From: Paludibacter propionicigenes WB4
GTDB taxonomy: Bacteria; Bacteroidota; Bacteroidia; Bacteroidales; Paludibacteraceae
DNA length: 64,000 nt
Assembly: GCF_000183135.1 (NCBI RefSeq)
Contig: NC_014734.1
Location: forward strand, 682,001 to 746,000
Direction: 5' to 3'
Shown here: piece after piece, positions 5,282 through 64,000 of the stretch
Position numbering within the stretch: position 1 is the first letter of the stretch
Layout: every line of letters begins with the position of its first letter
Program-made: the position numbers and the translations under genes
Notes under the pieces: generated by a model
What the model was told of the DNA's origin: nothing
Database searches by the model: none
The model's input: the letters and a program-made list of their open reading frames with translations, nothing else

Positions 5282-6127
5282 ATGCCACAAAGTATTAGTA
5301 CATACCTTAAACTTTACATACCACGTTTGTTTACGCATAAATACGGAAAAGTTTATTTTGCGGGAATATGCGCATATACATTCCTGTCGCTTAACTTCCA
5401 TCAGCCTGTTGGAGCATATATTTCGGACAGTACCCGGGTACATTGGATGCTGAGCTGCTTCGGAGCTGTATTTATCCTGATTTTCATCCTGTTCTACGCA
5501 TTGCTACCGCGTATCTTCCGTCAATATTTCAATAACTCAGCATGGAACCTCACGAAGGAACTAAGCGTATTGCTCCTGTTTTATGCCGCGTGCTGCATTG
5601 CCAACTGGGGATGCTTCTCATACAGCTATCAGTCTGCCTCCGGCACACCTGCCAACCTCATCAATATCCTGATATTTAGTTTCAGTTTTAATTTACTGCC
5701 CGTTGTTGTAATTATACTTTTGCAGGCCATTGTGTATCTGCTGGAGAAACATGAATTTACCCTGCATCATCCGGGCGCAGAAGCTATGTCGGTATTCCGG
5801 TGTGACGGAGGAAAAGAAATTCCGCTCTACAACATTTTATTTTTCTATCAGTCCGGTAATTATCAGTTTATATACTACGTATCCGAAGCCGGAATAATGG
5901 AAGAAAAAGAAAGGCGTAGCATGAAAATTCTGCTCGAAATGATGTCAGTCTACCCGGAGTTTAAATCATGTCACGTGTCTTACCTGGTAAATACGCATAA
6001 AATAGAATACTGTGTAACCGAAAGCGGCGAAAAGAGGCTGAAACTCATCGGGTACGACAAAAAACTCAACGTATCCTATAAACACAGGCACGACTTTGAC
6101 CAATATCTGCTTAATAACCGGAAGTGA
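5282..6127 (+). CDS. Membrane-anchored LytTR DNA-binding protein
   Basis: The 281-residue protein has about four transmembrane segments in the first 160 residues (roughly 25-42, 54-75, 95-115 and 130-152). A LytTR-like DNA-binding domain follows at about 170-275, with ILFFYQSGNYQFIYY, the helix KILLEMMSVYPEFKSCHVSYLVN and a final basic stretch. There is no receiver domain, so this is not a standard LytTR response regulator. Proteins of this layout probably sense a membrane or ligand signal and regulate nearby genes. No histidine kinase is adjacent. The upstream 247 bases have no gene. Targets are unknown. Confidence 0.75.
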   Translation: MPQSISTYLKLYIPRLFTHKYGKVYFAGICAYTFLSLNFHQPVGAYISDSTRVHWMLSCFGAVFILIFILFYALLPRIFRQYFNNSAWNLTKELSVLLLFYAACCIANWGCFSYSYQSASGTPANLINILIFSFSFNLLPVVVIILLQAIVYLLEKHEFTLHHPGAEAMSVFRCDGGKEIPLYNILFFYQSGNYQFIYYVSEAGIMEEKERRSMKILLEMMSVYPEFKSCHVSYLVNTHKIEYCVTESGEKRLKLIGYDKKLNVSYKHRHDFDQYLLNNRK

Positions 6128-6500
6128 ATTAAACGGATAGATAATATTTTACAGCAGAGCTTATAAATTTCAGCGTACTTGTACGGAACTGACCTTGTCC
6201 TGCGAGGCGAACATTCATTCAGAATAATACTACAGCCCCGACAAGCATACAAAAACTCACGAAAAGCCATAAATTTAACCCTCAAACTTCACACATTTCC
6301 GCTAAACATCACACGCTGCTTTTAATTTTCCCAAAAAAGCATTCAATCTTCACACACCCATTAAGGTTTCCAAAACTGCATTTATATTTGAAGCGTCTTT
6401 CGGAGGAGAGAACGAAAAGAAAATGGAAAATGATAAATGGAAAGTTGAAGATGATGAATGGAAAATGAAAATTATCAATTCTCAACATTCAATTATCAAA

Positions 6501-6733
6501 TCTGCCGAACAAAAGAACACGTCTGCCGAACAAAAGAACGCGTCTGACGAACGAAAGAACGACATGTGATGTAGAGTAGAACGCATCTGCCAAACGAAAG
6601 AACGCGTCTGCCAAGCAAAAGAACGCATCTGCCGAACGAAAGAACGACATGTGATGTAGAGTAGAACGCATCTGCCAAGCGAAAGAACACGTCTGACGAA
6701 CAAAAGAACGCATCTGCCGAACGAAAGAAAGGG
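6501..6733. repeat. 21-bp tandem repeat array with 85-bp higher-order period
   Basis: Nine copies of a 21-bp unit (core TCTGCCGAACRAAAGAAC) begin at 6501, 6522, 6543, 6586, 6607, 6628, 6671, 6692 and 6713. After copies 3 and 6 a 22-bp segment (core ATGTGATGTAGAGTAGAACG) interrupts the array, so three units plus one interrupter make an 85-bp super-unit repeated nearly three times. Because 21 is a multiple of three, all three frames of the minus strand stay open. Those frames look like repeat artefacts, not genes. The array sits in a 962-base region between 6127 and 7090 that holds no convincing gene. Confidence 0.9.
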
Positions 6734-6755
6734 ATGGTTTGCAGCGAAACAGGAG

Positions 6756-6915
6756 ACCCCAAACCCCTGAAGGGGACTTAAAGAGTGGTATGCTAGACAA
6801 TTCTCGATCAATAGAAGATATAGGAAACGAAACTAATTACACATCCCCTTTAGGGGCTTGGGGTAGTAAGATCACAAACTAATATCCCGTAACTCAATAC
6901 AAACAAATAAAAACA
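6756..6915. repeat. 160-bp direct repeat, copy 1
   Basis: The segment starts at ACCCCAAACCCCTG and runs to the AAACAAATAAAAACA stretch. It contains the CCCCTTTAGGGGCTTGGGGT motif and the words GTGGTATRCTAGACAA and GACGAAACTAATTACAC. A second copy follows at 6923-7081 at about 90 percent identity by eye, only 7 bases away. Confidence 0.85.
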
Positions 6916-6922
6916 TAATACC

Positions 6923-7081
6923 GCCCCAGACCCCTAAAGGGACTTAAGAGTGGTATACTAGACAATACTCAATCAATAGAAGGTATAGGAGACGAAACTA
7001 ATTACACATCCCCTTTAGGGGCTTGGGGTAGTAAGATCACAAACTAAATATCTTGTAAATCAATACAAACAAATAAAAAAC
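6923..7081. repeat. 160-bp direct repeat, copy 2
   Basis: This is the second copy of the segment at 6756-6915. It ends 8 bases before the ATG of the next gene, so the repeat supplies that gene's whole 5' leader. Differences are single substitutions and small indels, which points to a fairly recent duplication. Confidence 0.85.
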
Positions 7082-8088: not shown

Positions 8089-8133
8089 TTTCGACTACGC
8101 TCAACGACCAATGGTTCTTGAGCGTAGTCGAAA
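8089..8133. repeat. REP-like palindrome
   Basis: TTTCGACTACGCTCAA (8089-8104) and its exact reverse complement (8118-8133) form a perfect 16-bp stem with a 13-base loop. This motif resembles a dispersed palindrome I know from other Bacteroidetes intergenic regions. It marks the left edge of the AT-rich island. Confidence 0.8.
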
Positions 8134-8195
8134 GAAAAGAAATACCCCGATGAAGTAAGAAAATTATTCAGAAAAAGAAAAATAATTTATTTAAA

Positions 8196-8228
8196 TTGCA
8201 TGCGGTTAAAAAATGATTCGTAAATTTG
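8196..8228 (+). promoter_or_regulatory. Promoter of the island operon
   Basis: A TTG element at 8196-8198 and a -7 box TAAATTTG at 8221-8228 are separated by 22 bases, slightly longer than the 19-21 usual in Bacteroides. Transcription would begin near 8235, just before the ATG at 8249. This is the only promoter-like sequence I found ahead of the five island genes. Confidence 0.55.
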
Positions 8229-8248: not shown

Positions 8249-8491
8249 ATGTTAGAAGATAAAAAACAATTTTTAGAAAGCCAGCTTTAGGGGATTGTCA
8301 ATTTATTAAAGAGGGGAAGAATTATACCAAATAATTACGAGGACTATATATACTGGGGTTCATTTTTTATAAATATCTTTCCGAAAGATAATTTCAACAT
8401 CAGCTTTTCAGTATACAACGATTCTTTCAAAAAATAAGCAAAACAATATGCAAATAAATACATTAACGCTACAATTGATTTTTGGAAAGGA
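8249..8491 (+). pseudogene. Decayed coding sequence upstream of the NurA-like gene
   Basis: From the ATG at 8249 the frame reads MLEDKKQFLESQL, then TAG at 8288-8290. It continues with protein-like sequence (GIVNLLKRGRIIPNNYEDYI, then FFINIFPKDNFNISFSVYND) to TAA at 8435-8437, and then AKQYANKYINATIDFWKGMF. All of this is in the same frame as the next gene. The composition looks like a real protein broken by two stops: either a small gene that once began at 8249, or a lost N-terminal part of the NurA-like protein. I do not recognise the family. Sequencing error is possible but would need two separate events. Confidence 0.5.
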
Positions 8492-9679
8492 ATGTTTAAA
8501 TCTAAAGACAATATAAATATGGAAAAATTACTTCAATTTATCTCAAGAGAGACAAAGGGAGAATGCTATAGATCATTTAAATTCTGCCATGATATTCTTG
8601 CAATGCCATCAATTGCCTACGAAGATAAACCAAATGAAAAGATTAATCTTAAAGAATATGGAGAAACAGAAAACTCACCATACACGCGTGATCTAACTAA
8701 AAAAATAAAACAATTTGAAGGGACTGCACCACTATTTAGATATTTTCTTGATGGAACAAGAAGAACGTATAAGATTGATGATATTGAATATCAAAAAAAG
8801 GTTTTCCCAATTATTGCGGGACAAATTGGAGTAGGATGTTGTGAGCGAGTAGATAGTTCAACGTTCAGAAAAGTTGAACTAGAACATAATCTAGTTCTAT
8901 CTTTGCCTAGTTATGCTTATGCTGATGGCCACAAACCAGAATTATTTTTTAATTCACTCACTGATAAAATCAATCAAATTGGAAGCTTAAAAAGATATAA
9001 TTTGATTTTTTCGAAAATTCTCCCTTATGATTCGAACAAACTACCTGTAGGAGAGACATATGAAAATAAAGGAATTGCAAAAATTCAAAGTGAAATGATT
9101 GATAGTGAAAAAAAAATCGTCGCAAAGCTTACCTCAAGAAATCTACTAAATCAAGATAATTATTTGATTAAAGATGGCTCATTACAATATAAGGCAATGA
9201 AAACAGGAGATTTTAGAGAGATTTCTAAGATCAGGAATAATTATCGATGTGTAATTGGAGTTTCAAAGCAATTTAACCCAGAATTGCTTAAAGATAAAAA
9301 TGATAAGAGTAATGCAAGTGTTATTGCACACTTACCTTTATTCCACAGAACCCCGGCATTTATGTATGCACCAGGAGAACAATTTGGGGATGCAAGATTT
9401 GCAGTCTGGTATGTTAGAATACGAGATAGCAAATTTACAGATACTCCCTTTTCCGGAGTACTAAAAATAGAAAAAATGTTAATGACGGGAAATGAAAGCG
9501 AAAACGGATTGGAAACTGATGAAGTTGATTTGATCAGCTTAAATGTCATTAGAGAGCGTAACCCCGTTTGTTATGGCAGTGACAATCGTTGGGCAAACCA
9601 TTTATATCCTGTATATTTAACTGAGAAATTTATAAAAAGCCAATATATTAGTGATTTACACTTTTTAAACTTATTCTAA
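8492..9679 (+). CDS. NurA-like nuclease
   Basis: NurA proteins are RNase H-fold 5'-3' nucleases that work with HerA translocases in DNA end resection, and related pairs occur in phage-defence loci. The 395-residue product shows the first NurA motif (RYFLDGTRRTYKI, Asp87), a GQIGVGCCER segment at about 110-120, a GVSKQF motif (Lys259) and a C-terminal NRWANHLYPVYL segment. The open frame starts at 8492, but the ATG at 8519 (MEKLLQFISRE) is an equally good start. The next gene begins one base after the stop codon, so translation is probably coupled to the HerA-like gene. Codon use is much more AT-rich than in flanking genes. The NurA call rests on motif pattern plus the HerA neighbour. Confidence 0.7.
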   Translation: MFKSKDNINMEKLLQFISRETKGECYRSFKFCHDILAMPSIAYEDKPNEKINLKEYGETENSPYTRDLTKKIKQFEGTAPLFRYFLDGTRRTYKIDDIEYQKKVFPIIAGQIGVGCCERVDSSTFRKVELEHNLVLSLPSYAYADGHKPELFFNSLTDKINQIGSLKRYNLIFSKILPYDSNKLPVGETYENKGIAKIQSEMIDSEKKIVAKLTSRNLLNQDNYLIKDGSLQYKAMKTGDFREISKIRNNYRCVIGVSKQFNPELLKDKNDKSNASVIAHLPLFHRTPAFMYAPGEQFGDARFAVWYVRIRDSKFTDTPFSGVLKIEKMLMTGNESENGLETDEVDLISLNVIRERNPVCYGSDNRWANHLYPVYLTEKFIKSQYISDLHFLNLF

Positions 9680-9680
9680 T

Positions 9681-11348
9681 ATGAAAATCATAGGTAAAGT
9701 AGTAGCAACAGAAAAGAATCCAACCACAATTGATGATTTTTATTTTTGGACTGACAAAAAGAGGCAATTAAAACCTTTTGATGTTATCGTTGTAAAGCAT
9801 ATTGAAAAATCAGAAACTTATGGAGTAATTGAAGAAATTTCTCACATTACAGACGCGCCAAGTTATCTAGCTGGTTTTATTTCTAGTGATTTCGGCGATG
9901 TGGAGCATCAGCCATTAACTGAACGCATTGGAATGAACTATGTTAAATGTAGGGTTGTTGGTAATACAAAAAATATATATACACCAGTATTAGACAGTTC
10001 AGATGTATTATTAGCAGATGAAGATCAAATTAAAGAAGCTTTAGGTTTAGCTGAAGTCAAAAACCCACTACCTGCTGGTTATATTGAAATGTATGAGGGT
10101 GAAAATAAAAAAACAATTCCTGTACATTTTAATTCTCATTTTTTAATTGGTCCTGAGGGAGCTCATTTAAATATATCAGGGATTTCTGGACTTGCATCAA
10201 AAACGTCTTATGCGATGTTTCTAATGAAAGCAATTCAAGACAAATACTTAAAAGATAAAAGTGAAGAATCTGTAGCTTTCGTAATGCTAAATGTCAAGGG
10301 TAGAGATCTGCTTTCTGTTGACGAATTTAACTCAGATAAGGAGTTAGTCGAAAATGAAATATTTCCGGTATACGATTTATTGGATTTAGAGAAAAAACCT
10401 TTTGAAAATGTTAAGTACTTTTATCCATATTCTAAAGAAATAGCGCCAACTACTTATGCACAAGTTTCGGATGTCAAAAGCCAAATAAATAGAGGGAGTG
10501 CGTTCCAATATAAATATGTTTTTGAAGATGATAGAGAAAGCATAGATTTGTTGTTTTCAAATGTTGATGACCCAAATGAAACAATGGAGTCGATTGTAAA
10601 CTATATATCAACTGGTCAAGGTAAATTTAGCAACATTACTTCATGGGAAGAGCTAAAGAAAACACTATACGAACAGACTCAAACAGGGAATAAAGATAAT
10701 AGTGGAAAAGAAATAACTGTATTAAGTTGGAGAAAATTCTATCGTTTATTTAATAAATCTTATGAGAAAAATAAATCTCTTTTTGCTAATCGTTGCTGTG
10801 ACCAGCATGAAGTACGTTTAAAAGATCAAATTCAAAATATTGAGAAAAACGATGTCTTCGTAATTGATATTGCAAAATTAGATGAAGAAACACAAGGTTT
10901 TGTTTTTGGAGATGTTATGAGGGCAATTTATGATCTCAAACTAGGAACAACTGAGAGAGAAGAAAAAGAAATTCCCTCTAAGATTGTCATATTTATTGAT
11001 GAGTTAAATAAATATGCATCCAACGAGATCCCGAAAAGCTCACCTATATTGAAGCAGTTACTTGATATTACTGAAAGGGGGCGTTCTTTAGGAATAATCT
11101 TATTTGGTGCAGAGCAATTTATAAGTGATATACACAAACGTGTGAAAGGAAATTGCTCTACTTTAGCCTATGGAAGAACTAATGTTATAGAAATATCTAA
11201 AAGTGACTTTCAATTTGTACCTCATGTCTATAAATCTATGCTTACAAGATTAAAACAAGGTGAATACATATTGCAGAATCCAATATTTCGTTCGCTAATT
11301 AATATCAAATTCCCCAAACCAATATATAAACAACATAAAAATGGATAA
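9681..11348 (+). CDS. HerA-like DNA translocase ATPase
   Basis: HerA-family ATPases form hexameric rings that pump DNA and drive NurA or other effector nucleases. The 555-residue protein begins with a HAS-barrel-like domain (about 1-95; GVIEEISHITDAPSYL). It then has the ATPase core with a P-loop region at 167-175 (GISGLASKT), Walker B at 435-441 (IVIFIDE, Asp440 and Glu441) and a following RGRSLGIILFGAEQF segment typical of the HerA/FtsK clade. The P-loop reads GxxGxxxKT, not the usual GxxGxGK[ST]. Lys174 and Thr175 are kept, so activity is plausible. The last codons overlap the start of the next gene by 8 bases. Confidence 0.82.
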   Translation: MKIIGKVVATEKNPTTIDDFYFWTDKKRQLKPFDVIVVKHIEKSETYGVIEEISHITDAPSYLAGFISSDFGDVEHQPLTERIGMNYVKCRVVGNTKNIYTPVLDSSDVLLADEDQIKEALGLAEVKNPLPAGYIEMYEGENKKTIPVHFNSHFLIGPEGAHLNISGISGLASKTSYAMFLMKAIQDKYLKDKSEESVAFVMLNVKGRDLLSVDEFNSDKELVENEIFPVYDLLDLEKKPFENVKYFYPYSKEIAPTTYAQVSDVKSQINRGSAFQYKYVFEDDRESIDLLFSNVDDPNETMESIVNYISTGQGKFSNITSWEELKKTLYEQTQTGNKDNSGKEITVLSWRKFYRLFNKSYEKNKSLFANRCCDQHEVRLKDQIQNIEKNDVFVIDIAKLDEETQGFVFGDVMRAIYDLKLGTTEREEKEIPSKIVIFIDELNKYASNEIPKSSPILKQLLDITERGRSLGIILFGAEQFISDIHKRVKGNCSTLAYGRTNVIEISKSDFQFVPHVYKSMLTRLKQGEYILQNPIFRSLINIKFPKPIYKQHKNG

Positions 11349-12894
11349 TACAACGCCAATTATAGGAAAAGATGTAATTGAATCCTTAACGATTGGAATG
11401 TACGAAGATAGTAGATTTATCTATCGCGAATATATTCAGAATTCAGCAGATCAAATAGATAAAGCTGTTGCGCAGGGTTTGATTAAAAAAGAACAGGAAG
11501 AAATTCACATTTCAATTAATCAGGATGAGAAAAATGTGGAAATTTATGACAATGCCACAGGAATATCTCAAAATGAAGCATTGCCAATACTTCTTAATAT
11601 TGCTCAATCTACTAAACAAAGAGGAATTGACAAAGGGTTTAGAGGAATTGGTCGATTAGGAGGGCTAGCATATTGTGAAAAACTAATTTTCGAAACTTCT
11701 TATAAAGGAGAAGATACCAAAACAACATTAATATGGGATGCTACTTTGCTCAAAGAAATAATAAATGACCGTAATGAAAAAGAGGATGCTGTTTCAGTTA
11801 TTCAAAAAGTTACAACATCGGTAGTTTCTAAAGAAGACTCCAATAAACATTATTTTAAAGTAATTCTTGAAGGAGTTACAAATGAAGATTTATTAGATAA
11901 GAAGAGTGTTGACAAATATTTATCAATGGTTGCACCTCTACCATTTCCAAGCAGGTTTATTTATAAATCCCTTATTTATGATGAATTAAAAAAAGAAGGA
12001 TTATTGTTAGATGAATATAGAATTTATTTGAATACGGAACAACTGTATAAAGGTTATTCAACAACTATTTATAAAGGGGAGGATAATGACAAAAGAAAAG
12101 AAGATGAAATTTTATATATAGAATTCTTTAAGGAATATGCTAAAGATGGACAACTGCTATTTTGGGGTTGGCATAGTATTTCAGGAAAAAATCAATCGCT
12201 AAATCAAATTAATTATTCAAGAGGATTTCGCTTAAGAAAATCAAATATACAAGTTGGGGATGAATTCACATTAATTAAACTACAAAGGGATAAAAGGTTT
12301 CAATTTTATTTTTTTGGAGAAATTCATGGAATTCATTGTGATTTAATTCCTAACTCAAGAAGAGACTACTTTTCCGAAAATAAAATATCTTTAGAATTTG
12401 ACCAAAAACTAAAACAGTTTTTTCATAAAAACATAAATGATCTATGTCGCACAGCTTCCGATTTAAATAGTTCCTTGAAAAAAATTGAAGAGCTAAGAAC
12501 ATTTGATGAAGAATATAAGATAAAGAAGGAAATTGGTTTTACAAACAAAACAGAACATCAGGAGTATAAAGAGAAATTTGAAAAAAAATTAGATGAGGCT
12601 CAAAAAGCACAAAATAAAATAAATAAAATAAAGACAGGTTTTAGTAACATTGAAAATCATCCAGTAAATAAAATTTTACAAAGTGTCGTCAGTTCAGATT
12701 CAATAAATATATATAAACTTAAGCCTGAAATAAATGATCCGTGTGGTAAAACGAAATTTCGTACAGATAATCTAAGTGGTTTAAACAAAGAACAACGTAA
12801 ACTAATTGCAAGAATATTTGGAGTAATAAGTGATGTATTAGATAAAGAGACGGCAGAAAATGTAATACAAAAAATAGAAGAAGAACTTAAATAG
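11341..12894 (+). CDS. GHKL (Hsp90/MORC-type) ATPase
   Basis: The 517-residue protein has an N-terminal GHKL ATP-binding domain. The N box is at Glu30-Asn34-Asp37 (REYIQNSADQID), the G1 box at Asp70 (DNATGIS) and the glycine-rich lid at 99-108 (GFRGIGRLGG). In G1 the usual DxGxG is DNATG, with alanine for the first glycine. A middle domain follows, then a charged coiled-coil stretch near 400-440 and a C-terminal domain. MORC- and Hsp90-like ATPases of this type act as ATP-dependent clamps. MutL-like and MORC-like members appear in several bacterial defence loci. The 8-base overlap with the HerA-like gene implies a joint function. The substrate is unknown. Confidence 0.75.
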   Translation: MDNTTPIIGKDVIESLTIGMYEDSRFIYREYIQNSADQIDKAVAQGLIKKEQEEIHISINQDEKNVEIYDNATGISQNEALPILLNIAQSTKQRGIDKGFRGIGRLGGLAYCEKLIFETSYKGEDTKTTLIWDATLLKEIINDRNEKEDAVSVIQKVTTSVVSKEDSNKHYFKVILEGVTNEDLLDKKSVDKYLSMVAPLPFPSRFIYKSLIYDELKKEGLLLDEYRIYLNTEQLYKGYSTTIYKGEDNDKRKEDEILYIEFFKEYAKDGQLLFWGWHSISGKNQSLNQINYSRGFRLRKSNIQVGDEFTLIKLQRDKRFQFYFFGEIHGIHCDLIPNSRRDYFSENKISLEFDQKLKQFFHKNINDLCRTASDLNSSLKKIEELRTFDEEYKIKKEIGFTNKTEHQEYKEKFEKKLDEAQKAQNKINKIKTGFSNIENHPVNKILQSVVSSDSINIYKLKPEINDPCGKTKFRTDNLSGLNKEQRKLIARIFGVISDVLDKETAENVIQKIEEELK

Positions 12895-12900
12895 TTTATT

Positions 12901-14388
12901 ATGGAAGATATAAATGAAATATCGATTGAAAATGAACCGATTGAAAAAGATGGTGAAGGATCTAATTTCTATAAGTTCCAATTAGATGAATATAAAAACT
13001 TATCAAATTGTCACTTTGAATCCGTTAAACAAGTATCACTCTTCTTCAGGTATTATTTATTAATTTTAGCTGCTCCTGTATTTTTACTAACGCTATTATC
13101 TGATAATGGAAAAGGATTAACTGATCTATTTACTGGATTAAAACCGAAAATCTATTATGATGTTGCTTTCTTTTACTTTTCAGCAATTTCCATAATTGGA
13201 TTTTTTATATTATTATATATTGTAAACTTAAGACATGATGCTTTATTATATGCTAGAGCTGTGAACAAAGTTAGAAGATATTTCTATGAAAAATCTAATC
13301 TTAGTTTTAAGGAATATATGAATTATCAGGAACTACCTACAACATCATCAAAACCTAAATACTATGAAAAGACTTTTTTCTTTCCTCTACTGATAGTTTT
13401 TGCATTAATTAATTGCGGTTTTTTACATACAGCTTTTGCTTTGCATATGTGTGTATCTCCATATGTTTTTGGTTTTTCATATATAGGAGATATACCTATA
13501 ACGAATCAACTAACAATGTTGATTATATCTTTATTTTTATTATTGCATTTTGGCTTTTATGTATTACTTTCATATAGAAGACAGAATATCTATCTAAAAA
13601 ACTTTTCAATAGGTATTGATATTGATGGAGTTTTAAATAATCAGACAGAACATTTTATTAGTTGGATTAAAACTCTAACGGGAAAAGACATTGAAGCTAA
13701 TGCAATTAAAGAAATTCCAGTTAGTTTAAACCTAGGAATTGGTATAAGTGATTTAGAAGAAAGGCTTGTTTTCAATACAAAAGAGTATTGGGAATCTTTA
13801 ATTATTAAAGATAATGCAGCAAAAAGGATTAATGATCTTCAGAAGAGATTCGGATATAAAATTAAGTTTTTTTCATATCGTGATTGGCCACAATATGGGA
13901 GCGATGAAACGTATATAAAAAAAATAATAATTGAAAAAGGATTTACTCCTTTAAATAAAAAAGAAATATCGCATATTACTTCAAAATGGATAAATAACGC
14001 ATTTAACACTTCAAAGCCTCTTGTAAAAGAAAATATAATAGTATACTATTCAAAATCTGTATATTATTGTCTTCAGAAGATCTTTTTTAGTAGTAAGAAA
14101 AAGGTACTAATAGAAAAAGGAAATCCCTATATTTCTGACAGAAGATTTATGAGACACAATAGATATGCAATTATAAATAAAAATAGATTTCAATATGCAA
14201 ATAATAAAGGTTTTAAGTTTTTTGTTGAAGACACACCTGAGAATGCAATAAAGTTATCTGGATTATGCGATTATATTTTTATGTTTGACCAACCATATAA
14301 CCAAAAAGAGTATTATGATTTTCCTAAGAATGTAATCAGAGTAAAAACTTGGGATGATATTTATAAACAATTAAAAACATTGTGCTAA
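12901..14388 (+). CDS. Membrane protein fused to HAD-type nucleotidase domain
   Basis: The 495-residue protein has four predicted membrane helices (about 49-66, 87-107, 157-180 and 200-222). A cytoplasmic HAD-superfamily domain follows from about 236: motif I IGIDIDGVLNN (Asp240 and Asp242), a probable motif II FFSYRD, and a motif IV-like FFVEDTPENA (Glu443, Asp444). The HAD part is most like the 5'(3')-deoxyribonucleotidase (NT5C-like) clade, which would make it a nucleotide phosphatase held at the membrane. It begins 6 bases after the GHKL stop codon. I do not know this fusion from a named system. The substrate is not established, and a sugar phosphate is also possible. Confidence 0.62.
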   Translation: MEDINEISIENEPIEKDGEGSNFYKFQLDEYKNLSNCHFESVKQVSLFFRYYLLILAAPVFLLTLLSDNGKGLTDLFTGLKPKIYYDVAFFYFSAISIIGFFILLYIVNLRHDALLYARAVNKVRRYFYEKSNLSFKEYMNYQELPTTSSKPKYYEKTFFFPLLIVFALINCGFLHTAFALHMCVSPYVFGFSYIGDIPITNQLTMLIISLFLLLHFGFYVLLSYRRQNIYLKNFSIGIDIDGVLNNQTEHFISWIKTLTGKDIEANAIKEIPVSLNLGIGISDLEERLVFNTKEYWESLIIKDNAAKRINDLQKRFGYKIKFFSYRDWPQYGSDETYIKKIIIEKGFTPLNKKEISHITSKWINNAFNTSKPLVKENIIVYYSKSVYYCLQKIFFSSKKKVLIEKGNPYISDRRFMRHNRYAIINKNRFQYANNKGFKFFVEDTPENAIKLSGLCDYIFMFDQPYNQKEYYDFPKNVIRVKTWDDIYKQLKTLC

Positions 14389-14396
14389 ACACTATA

Positions 14397-16223
14397 ATGA
14401 CAAATAGAAATATCTTACTATTAGAACCAAATTATAAAAATAAATATCCTCCTATAGGATTAATGAAAATCGCCACTTATCATAGGATGTTAGGTGATAA
14501 CATAACTTTTTTCAAAGGAAATTTAAAAGACTTAGTCATCAAAAATATTACTGATTTATGTATTGATAAATTAAAAAAAATAGATAATTCAATCAATTGG
14601 TTCGAAAACCGAAATACAATTTCGGTTTTCATCAGAACTAAAAACCATAAACATTTAGAACAACTAAATATTGACAACTCAGATTATAAGATACTTATAT
14701 ATAGCTGCATAGAAAACTATAAAAATTACTATTCAAAAAAGTTATACGAGAAAGAACCATATTATGATAGAATATATGTTACTACTTTATTTACTTTTTA
14801 TTGGAAAATTACAATTGAAACAATAAATTTTTCTAAGAAATTAGTAAAAGACCTCAACGAGTTAAAAGTCGGCGGCATTTCGGCAACAATTCTTTCTGAT
14901 GATATAATAAAAGAAACTGGCATAACACCCAACAAAGGATTATTAGATAAACCAGGTATTCTTGATAAAGATAACGAAATTATTATTGATACTTTACCTT
15001 TGGATTATTCCATTTTAGATGAAATTGATTATAAATATCCTGAAAATGAAGCTTATTATGGTTATATGACACGTGGTTGTATTCGTAAATGTTCATTTTG
15101 TGCAGTACCAACTCTTGAACCTAGATACGATGAATTTATACCAATATCTCAATATATAGAAGAAACAAAATTAAACTTTGGAGAGAAACGGAACCTTTTA
15201 TTACTTGATAATAATGTGTTGGCATCACCAAGTTTTCCCAATATAATTGAAGAGATCAAGCAACTTGGATTTATAAAAGGTGGCAAGTATACTGAACCAA
15301 ATCAGCTCGAAATCTCAATTCGAAATCTCAAACTAGGGCTAAATGATAAAGCCTACATAAGAAGATCTTACACATTGCTTAGAAATTTACTAAATAAAAT
15401 CAAAGGAAATGAACAACAAAATTTTTATAATTTATTAGAGGATAATGATTTATTAAAACCTGAAACTGTAACAAAAGATAAATTATTAAATATCTATCCT
15501 CTGATTTCAGAACTATATACAAATCACTATAAACATTCTTACCGTTTGCGTTATGTTGATTTCAATCAGGGGGTAGATGCTAGACTAATTAATGAATCCA
15601 ATATAAAATTGTTGAGTGAAATTCCTATTCATCCTTTGAGAATTGCCTTTGATAGTATAAAATATAAAGAACAGTATTGTAACGCCATAAGATTAGCTGC
15701 AAAGTATGATATTAAGTACTTATCTAATTACATATTATATAATGATACAGATACACCTCTGGAATTATATTACAGATTAAAAATTAATATTGACTTAAGT
15801 GAAAGCTTAAATATAAGTATTTATTCATTTCCAATGAAATTTCATCCTATTGTTGGCGAAGATAGATTTAATAGAAATTATTTGGGGAAATATTGGAATC
15901 GAAAATTCATTAGATCGGTGCAAGCAATTTTAAATGTAACAAAAGGAAAAGTTGGAAAAGGTAGAAGTTTTTTTAATCGAGCATTTGGACAAAACGAAGA
16001 AGAATTCATAAAACTACTATATATGCCAGAATCTTACATCCTTTATAGATCATATTATGAAAAAAATGGAAAAACTGATACTTGGTGGAATGATTTTAAT
16101 TCTTTGAATGAACTCGAATTAATTGAAGCTAAAAACATCATTGAAAAAAATGATTTTAAGCATTGTGATACAATTACGAATAATTCAAAGATCATAAGAC
16201 TTTTAAAACATTACCTCATTTGA
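14397..16223 (+). CDS. Radical SAM protein of the B12-binding type
   Basis: The 608-residue product starts at the ATG at 14397, 8 bases after the previous stop; a GTG at 14382 would overlap that gene. The N-terminus ILLLEPNYKNKYPPIGLMKIATYHR is typical of radical SAM proteins with a cobalamin-binding-like domain. The [4Fe-4S] cluster motif CxxxCxxC is intact at Cys228, Cys232 and Cys235 (RGCIRKCSFCAVP). The C-terminal half (about 300-608) is not recognised. Such enzymes use a 5'-deoxyadenosyl radical to modify RNA, nucleotides or peptides; the substrate here cannot be inferred. It closes the five-gene island and shares its AT-rich composition. It is not a viperin-type sequence. Confidence 0.72.
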   Translation: MTNRNILLLEPNYKNKYPPIGLMKIATYHRMLGDNITFFKGNLKDLVIKNITDLCIDKLKKIDNSINWFENRNTISVFIRTKNHKHLEQLNIDNSDYKILIYSCIENYKNYYSKKLYEKEPYYDRIYVTTLFTFYWKITIETINFSKKLVKDLNELKVGGISATILSDDIIKETGITPNKGLLDKPGILDKDNEIIIDTLPLDYSILDEIDYKYPENEAYYGYMTRGCIRKCSFCAVPTLEPRYDEFIPISQYIEETKLNFGEKRNLLLLDNNVLASPSFPNIIEEIKQLGFIKGGKYTEPNQLEISIRNLKLGLNDKAYIRRSYTLLRNLLNKIKGNEQQNFYNLLEDNDLLKPETVTKDKLLNIYPLISELYTNHYKHSYRLRYVDFNQGVDARLINESNIKLLSEIPIHPLRIAFDSIKYKEQYCNAIRLAAKYDIKYLSNYILYNDTDTPLELYYRLKINIDLSESLNISIYSFPMKFHPIVGEDRFNRNYLGKYWNRKFIRSVQAILNVTKGKVGKGRSFFNRAFGQNEEEFIKLLYMPESYILYRSYYEKNGKTDTWWNDFNSLNELELIEAKNIIEKNDFKHCDTITNNSKIIRLLKHYLI

Positions 16224-16226
16224 TAA

Positions 16227-16427
16227 AATCATAAAACAAAGAAATACAAAGGAAATTACGACTATTTGCATCTTGAAATCCGTAAATCGTTCTACGATTA
16301 TGGATGTGCCAGTTGGTTGACGATGAATAAAACCGAACTGAACGAATTGTTTTATGACCCCATGACGTTTATGAAACACAATTTGGGAAGCAATGCAACT
16401 GATAAATCAAAAAATACTGGTAACTGA
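16227..16427 (+). pseudogene. Decayed gene fragment after the radical SAM gene
   Basis: An open frame without a start codon reads KYKGNYDYLHLEIRKSFYDY, then CASWLTMNKTELNELFYDP, and ends at TGA 16425-16427. It is protein-like and less AT-rich than the island genes. It looks like the C-terminal remnant of a gene cut by insertion or deletion at the island's right border. The family is not recognised. Confidence 0.5.
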
Positions 16428-16756: not shown

Positions 16757-16930
16757 AGTGTTTTTACATATTTGTCTCCAGAATACTTAGAAGCCAAACC
16801 ACCAAAAACACGTTTAGGAAGAAAATTAATTAGAAAGTTTAACTATTTAGAGCAAGATAAAAAATTAAAGTCGATACGCAACAATAATGTTTATAAAATA
16901 CAGACATTTAATGACTTCAAAGAACTTTAG
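16757..16930 (+). pseudogene. Second decayed gene fragment
   Basis: The frame after a TGA at 16754 reads SVFTYLSPEYLEAKPPKTRL and continues through LIRKFNYLEQDKKL to TAG at 16928-16930. It has no start codon. The sequence is coding-like and probably the end of a lost gene. The family is not recognised. The remaining sequence between 16428 and 17055 holds the repeat at 16446 and the promoter region of the next gene. Confidence 0.45.
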
Positions 16931-63396: not shown

Positions 63397-64000
63397 TTAT
63401 TTTACTACTATTGCTTCCAGATTTTTATTTCTTATCTGAATGTAAACCACAGAACCTGGTTTGCTGTAGGCAGCCTGAACATAACCCATTCCGATTCCTT
63501 TTTTGGTATCAGGCAGCATAGTTCCCGAAGTTACTACTCCTATAACATCTCCAGTTTCATTTACAATGCTATATTCATGACGGGGAATGCCACGTTCTTT
63601 TAATTCAAAACGTACCAACTTACGGCTTACGCCTTCGGCTTTTTGCTTTTCAAGCAACGAACGGTCAATAAAGTTTTTTCCGTCAGCAAACTTGGTAATC
63701 CAACCTAAGCCGGCTTCGATAGGCGATGTGGTATCATCAATATCATTTCCATACAAGCAAAAACCCTTTTCGAGGCGCAACGAATCACGCGCTCCCAAGC
63801 CGATTGGTTTAATTCCGAATTCGGCACCAGTAGCGAAAAGTGCATCCCAAATTTTATCCCCATGTTCAGGATAAAAATATAATTCGAAACCTCCCGCACC
63901 GGTATAACCTGTGTTAGAAAGAATAACGTTTTCGACACCTGCAAAATCACCAACTGCAAAGCCGTAATAAGGAATCTGCGAAAGATCAGTGCCGGTCAGC
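63397..64000 (-). CDS. gcvT: Aminomethyltransferase (glycine cleavage T protein), partial
   Basis: Only the C-terminal 201 residues are in the window; the gene starts beyond 64000. The visible part shows [14 protein letters not shown], the [21 protein letters not shown] motif and the C-terminal barrel domain ending [14 protein letters not shown] protein transfers the methylene group from lipoyl-H protein to tetrahydrofolate. The frame is open to the edge. gcvH and gcvP are not visible. Confidence 0.93.

Follow-up and report, generated by a model that had tools for sequence, protein, structure and literature searches.

The window analysed here, a stretch of 64,000 nucleotides from Paludibacter propionicigenes WB4 (NC_014734.1, positions 682,001 to 746,000; the whole genome forms a single contig of 3,685,504 bases), contains an AT-rich island of five genes, encoding a NurA-family nuclease, a HerA-type translocase, a GHKL ATPase, a membrane protein with a HAD domain and a radical SAM enzyme (rSAM). 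An earlier note, made from the sequence alone, had presented them as one set behind one promoter and as a candidate conflict system. Its layout was borne out: the open reading frames (ORFs) are co-directional (8492-16223), with spacings of +1 base for NurA-HerA, −8 for HerA-GHKL, +6 for GHKL-HAD and +8 for HAD-rSAM. The last value holds for an rSAM start at ATG 14397, the most likely one by alignment with relatives, and becomes −7 if the gene begins at the upstream GTG 14382. The features are as follows.

8519..9679 (ORF opens at 8492), + strand: NurA-family nuclease
9681..11348, + strand: HerA-type DNA translocase ATPase (phmmer, Deinococcus radiodurans HerA 7f6d_B, E 1.5e-33)
11341..12894, + strand: GHKL (Hsp90/MutL-type) ATPase (HATPase_c_3, E 7.9e-10)
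12901..14388, + strand: accessory membrane protein with four transmembrane-like segments and a HAD domain (hydropathy, motifs)
14397..16223, + strand: radical SAM enzyme with a predicted N-terminal B12-binding-like domain
8196..8228, + strand: possible Bacteroidetes-type promoter, TTG-N22-TAnnTTTG (exact match; 2 found in the window versus 1.78 expected)

The identities given to NurA, HerA and GHKL were correct, and the three genes form a unit. The window NurA has the NurA RNase H-like fold, and its acidic residues D87, E206 and D228, conserved in 11 of 11 sequences, would by comparison with NurA motifs be the catalytic set. In HerA, K174, T175, D440, E441, R466 and Q479 are invariant (13/13); we take them to be the P-loop lysine and threonine (K174, T175), the Walker B DE pair (D440, E441), the arginine finger (R466) and the sensor glutamine (Q479). 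The HerA family is very large: of 8000 database candidates that were scored, 7997 match at E ≤ 0.001, and identity across the aligned part is at least 67% for the top 120 listed. The GHKL protein matches the HtpG model at E 1.6e-6, far under the model cut-off, and its N34, D70, G74, G102 and G104 are the same in all 17 aligned sequences. In the rSAM, a CxxxCxxC motif lies within a radical SAM fold. Methylthiotransferases of the MiaB/RimO type have three extra conserved N-terminal cysteines for an auxiliary cluster; none of this type was found here, no further cysteine being conserved in more than eight of 16 aligned rSAM sequences. The membrane protein has hydropathy peaks at residues 45-63, 90-108, 163-181 and 204-222, and HAD motifs DIDG at 240 and ED at 443. 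Its HAD domain is perhaps of the 5'-nucleotidase (NT5C) kind, PF06941 being found in 7 of 80 homologues; the window protein itself has no Pfam match.

The distribution of these genes was followed by a HerA search of 150 family genomes and 395 phylum genomes, and by an rSAM alignment search of the same listed 395 phylum genomes and of 395 class genomes. Full-length matches outside the window came from 11 genomes, in 12 loci (L058-L066 and L212-L214), genome G069 giving two contig ends, L062 and L066. Dropped before counting were weak HerA matches in G072 (E 6.1e-6) and in G332, G321, G193, G440 and G210 (E 8.5e-23 to 7.6e-4), and G409, a 220-amino-acid rSAM fragment with no NurA or HerA in the 8 kb read. 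All 12 loci, whether found by HerA or by rSAM, have HerA, GHKL, a slot and rSAM in this order, and NurA is present in 11, L066 starting inside HerA. The slot between GHKL and rSAM is empty in eight loci; in three (L058, L060, L212) it is occupied by an AAA_15 ATPase resembling NsnB together with an NsnC-like protein and a second GHKL, and in one (L059) by a divergent GHKL and a 333-amino-acid protein. None has HAD. Full-length HerA and rSAM occur in the same five of the 395 phylum genomes, the window's included, and the distances of the four families correlate over 12 loci, namely the window, L158 (an 8.9-kb unverified 'phage' scaffold outside the 12 core loci) and ten others. The constant core is thus NurA-HerA-GHKL-rSAM, with HAD optional. 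The set is not a fixed system of five genes, and the rSAM, described in the earlier note as an added arm, belongs to the core. In L214, the GHKL gene (10045-11634) is split into two frames within an otherwise intact NurA-HerA-GHKL-rSAM locus, by decay or by sequencing error.

A search of GTDB genomes with the HAD family alignment returned 16 loci, of which 10 were long matches; the short partial matches L018-L023 fall outside the ten. The five-gene order, whose recurrence the earlier note had set as its test, is present in L008 (Flavobacteriaceae) and L009 (Flagellimonas), and L012 (Carboxylicivirga) has it permuted, HAD preceding NurA-HerA-GHKL-rSAM. Among the ten loci, rSAM is nearby in eight and NurA-HerA in three. 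HAD tracks rSAM rather than NurA-HerA, and the five genes are therefore a four-gene core plus an accessory. L014 has rSAM, GHKL and HAD, and neither NurA-HerA nor a ParB/SNF2 module (described below) in the 21 kb read.

Several of these loci show further particularities. In L009, whose five-gene locus is otherwise complete, the NurA copy (5626-6765) looks interrupted, because its frame ends at 6594 while NurA similarity reaches 6765. In L011 (7358-16246) and L013 (9902-17948), HAD members stand next to a protein of 657-666 amino acids, GHKL-type in L011, and to two ORFs whose clustering with rSAM is at low identity; this is perhaps a third architecture. In L017 (8092-9984), a ParB-SNF2-ParB-rSAM locus, a Schlafen group 3 helicase-domain protein overlaps the start of the HAD ORF.

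The rSAM was also found with ParB_N-like proteins and an SNF2 helicase: on plasmids L155 (Rhizobium) and L157 (Roseomonas), in IMG/VR loci L076 and L078-L083, and in genomes L010, L015 and L017, the ParB_N and SNF2 matches of L083 being weaker than the others. GHKL adjoins rSAM in all these loci but L010 and L017. In L155, L156, L157, L080 and L083, the gene immediately upstream of rSAM-GHKL encodes a DGQHR protein; no ParB/SNF2 was seen in L156 (Novosphingobium). The DGQHR protein of L155 is of the DndB family (PF14072, E 1.8e-11), for which the Pfam description names DNA sulfur modification, and a DndB-family gene (PF14072, E 8.2e-9) is also found upstream of HAD-rSAM in L016. The SNF2 protein of the module matches the PADLOC models of DpdE and ZorD. 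In the 12 best IMG/VR rSAM loci (L075-L086), GHKL adjoins rSAM eight times and the ParB/SNF2 module occurs seven times. Twelve alphaproteobacterial plasmid records carry rSAM, seven of them typed conjugative. Beside DGQHR-rSAM-GHKL, two different plasmids (L155, 17224-20740; L156, 9144-12652) have a second GHKL-type protein and a PIN-like protein.

On IMG/VR contigs, locus L184 has relatives of NurA and HerA (HerA at 35% identity), and its 21.7 kb contain no match to GHKL or rSAM. There, the NurA ORF is overlapped at its start by an ORF of the Eco57I/N6_Mtase type and the gene after HerA is an N6_N4_Mtase, with a weak EVE match further on. L180-L183, from the same search, have GHKL-rSAM in the place of these methylases, that is, the four-gene form. 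In a larger IMG/VR set (L084-L154, 71 loci, 66 with a readable rSAM ORF), a ParB- or DNA-methylase-related ORF lies at most four ORFs from rSAM in 16 of 66 loci, a raw count without shuffled control that includes apparent contig copies (L091/L092, L121-L123, L149/L150); in 10 of the 16 it is directly upstream. Pfam, run on six neighbours of this upstream type, found neither a ParB nor a DNA-methylase domain in two. One or two ORFs downstream of rSAM, a common protein cluster occurs, with the same limits on the count, in 10 of 66 loci, and the one member tested (L093) is a terminase. Many virus-type rSAM proteins in L103-L154 are short (about 280-340 amino acids); they have CxxxCxxC, and most also a DFNQGLD motif. 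Because of the L184 methylases, the ParB and methylase neighbours and the DndB/SNF2 links, taken together, gene neighbourhoods favour the rSAM as a putative DNA-modifying enzyme. The nucleotide-level arm of the earlier note was not borne out, since this evidence favours DNA modification over a nucleotide-level effector.

PADLOC 2.0.0 gave only weak matches for the five proteins (HerA 2.4e-4, mad8 1.6e-5); the author of the earlier note knew no named system with this set, and PADLOC holds no model that matches it. The flanks of homologous loci were scanned with the same models. In ten loci, three of which came from the HAD search, 96 flank ORFs of at least 120 amino acids matched 129 families at 1e-20, a number inflated by redundant models and of which 25 families are listed, against 4 families for 100 control ORFs drawn from seven other regions in four of the ten genomes. 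A type I restriction HsdR gene is near the core in L058 and L061, and in L059 a ZorD/DpdE-like SNF2 protein precedes NurA, with two small ORFs between. The window's other ORFs of at least 120 amino acids (39 of 40, the ORF at 63397-63798 being left out) matched only nine families at 1e-10, each on one ORF, and the window copy is therefore in no clear defence island. To the question of the earlier note, whether the genes lie in defence islands, some homologous loci answer with neighbouring type I restriction genes, and the window shows no clear island of this kind. One window ORF outside the island matches the mad3 model best (E 8.8e-23), with weaker AriA and PtuA matches, and is possibly a generic ATPase.

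The interval 8249-16223 has a GC content of 28.7%. Overlapping segments of equal length, 405 in all, were taken from the window beyond 16.5 kb and from 13 other 20-kb genome regions; every one of them is richer in GC (mean 38.4%, standard deviation 2.4, minimum 32.6%), which agrees with the AT-richness first reported. GC at third codon positions is 17-22% in each of the five genes. The HerA of Dysgonomonas termitidis (P0085) is 88% identical to that of the window, and the best matches reach 96%. Together with the foreign composition, these identities suggest that the island was acquired by recent transfer. Some details at the edges had to be revised. The span had been begun at 8249, where a frame of 13 codons ends in TAG, outside NurA; NurA begins at ATG 8519 or 8492, the methionine coded at 8519 is the exact ORF start in five of ten aligned relatives, and the window protein is full length. 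The single promoter was not confirmed, since the motif at 8196-8228, which we take to be Bacteroidetes-like, is found about as often as expected. Nor were decayed gene pieces on both sides: 8291-8437 and 16245-16424 are short reading frames, the former matching only its own region among the fetched loci and the latter being without a significant further match elsewhere in the genome (E 0.47 for the next best). Decay of both is possible.

Between the island and the gene upstream of it lies a near-perfect palindrome (8089-8133), whose 22-base arms are 91% complementary and enclose a loop of one base; it may act as a terminator or represent a dispersed hairpin element. An imperfect 21-base direct repeat (86%) flanks the island (8154-8174 and 16816-16836); it is AT-rich and may be due to chance. 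Further upstream are a tandem array (6500-6729) of 21-, 64- and 85-base units, with 10.9 copies of the 21-base unit, and then, in 6781-7079, a 102-base stretch with a second copy 165 bases on (95% identity).

The analysis supports the NurA fold, the HerA identity, the conserved active-site positions, the conserved core and the exchangeable modules. HerA proteins are known to pump DNA into a NurA that degrades it. By fold and conserved residues, the island's HerA would likewise pump double-stranded DNA into NurA for degradation. The rSAM would put a chemical mark on the host's own DNA, with the GHKL ATPase assisting it as a clamp or regulator driven by ATP, so that marked DNA would be spared and unmarked incoming DNA destroyed. 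The membrane HAD, in a minority of loci, would be an accessory arm that probably dephosphorylates deoxynucleoside monophosphates, including NurA products. Taken as a whole chain, this horizontally moving, modification-gated, DNA-degrading defence system with the rSAM marking self DNA is a tentative reading of the sequences, to which we give slightly less than an even chance. More tentative still is its extension, in which rSAM-GHKL makes a novel radical DNA mark and defines a broad modification-gated class with exchangeable modules (NurA-HerA, or ParB-SNF2/DndB-linked), while some phages would carry only the rSAM, marking their own genomes with it so as to escape.

Several observations weigh against DNA marking or against defence. 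The best rSAM fold matches act on an aminoglycoside, protein, tryptophan or RNA, none on DNA, and we know of no precedent for radical chemistry of this class acting on double-stranded DNA. The rSAM is without GHKL in L010, L016 and L017; G332 has a distant HerA (30%, 428 residues) without NurA, GHKL or rSAM in 1.5 kb on each side; and methylases replace rSAM in one locus, L184. Phages often carry methylases. The limits given above for the 16 of 66 neighbours, for the flank and control ORF counts and for the window's own surroundings count in the same direction. The non-DNA substrates of the best folds would suit a defence without a DNA mark, in which infection would be sensed by GHKL, together with an rSAM acting on protein, tRNA or a small molecule, and NurA-HerA then be licensed for DNA degradation, possibly killing the cell. 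A conserved core with nuclease and ATPase, and the slot filled in 3 of 12 loci by the AAA_15/NsnB-like ATPase, NsnC-like protein and second GHKL, are consistent with it. However, it leaves unexplained the DndB, ParB and DNA methylase partners and the rSAM genes that stand without other partners on virus-type contigs, and we consider it rather unlikely, though the likeliest of the alternatives.

A DNA repair (end-resection) module without defence role, like archaeal and Deinococcus HerA-NurA, appears improbable. NurA and HerA do resemble the Deinococcus pair, and distant HerA relatives (22-29% identity) on four plasmids adjoin SbcD plus SbcC/SMC genes (three of four) or a putative exonuclease (one of four). 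But genes of the SbcD/SbcC (Mre11/Rad50) type were seen only beside these distant relatives and not in the core operons read, which hold no gene beyond core and slot genes; the spread is patchy (full-length HerA in five of 395 phylum genomes), the composition strongly foreign, and some loci have restriction neighbours. The plasmid records with rSAM, over half of them conjugative, the four-gene form in IMG/VR L180-L183, a primase-like neighbour in L063 and the possibly fortuitous 21-base repeat could instead point to a maintenance or entry-exclusion module of the carrier mobile element; as defence systems travel in the same way, we hold this to be equally doubtful. That HAD and rSAM are chance neighbours of a NurA-HerA-GHKL unit is very improbable. 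HAD is indeed missing from the 12 loci, but rSAM is present in every one, which largely refutes chance for rSAM, and the five-gene order recurs in the two flavobacterial loci.

If the rSAM does mark DNA, as in the modification-gated reading, radical SAM chemistry would join restriction-type immunity. A new DNA modification would then be predicted in Bacteroidota and on alphaproteobacterial plasmids, and this would suggest why virus-type contigs bear solitary rSAM homologues. The role of GHKL and rSAM beside a DNA-degrading motor becomes a directly testable question.

HerA-nuclease, modification-gated defence is already a known kind. In TdpABC, a phosphorothioate-gated defence, the backbone mark keeps a HerA-NurA-like pair off self DNA. 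PDB entry 8wfd belongs to this system by its title. The island likewise has a HerA-like and NurA-like pair; its putative modifier would be another enzyme, a radical SAM protein working with a GHKL ATPase. Among the papers listed by searches of the open-licence PMC literature, none had a title or abstract opening that indicates NurA-HerA together with GHKL and radical SAM; a description elsewhere, for instance in a preprint, is possible. As far as the parts of the sources consulted go, DndABCDE/DndFGH and 'HerA/FtsK capture' (PMC10853773) share the theme of HerA in modification-linked defence, and DndB-family genes adjoin rSAM-GHKL on plasmids; the main text of that paper has no occurrence of NurA, GHKL, HSP90 or DGQHR, and its 'radical SAM' passage concerns DndC. 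The anti-phage systems HerA-Sir2 and HerA-DUF4297 (PMC11291478; mentioned in PMC12977600) also pair HerA with a nuclease or effector, whereas the island's HerA partner is NurA, with no Pfam match to SIR2 or DUF4297 among the five proteins. Archaeal HerA-NurA may itself be antiviral (PMC12977600). With the NurA-HerA end-resection complex of Deinococcus and archaea (PMC9960219), the island shares the NurA fold and, for HerA, the sequence and conserved residues, and its operon adds GHKL and rSAM. Even without a DNA mark, its core appears not to have been described before: a HerA-nuclease system of four genes whose accessory slot can be exchanged.
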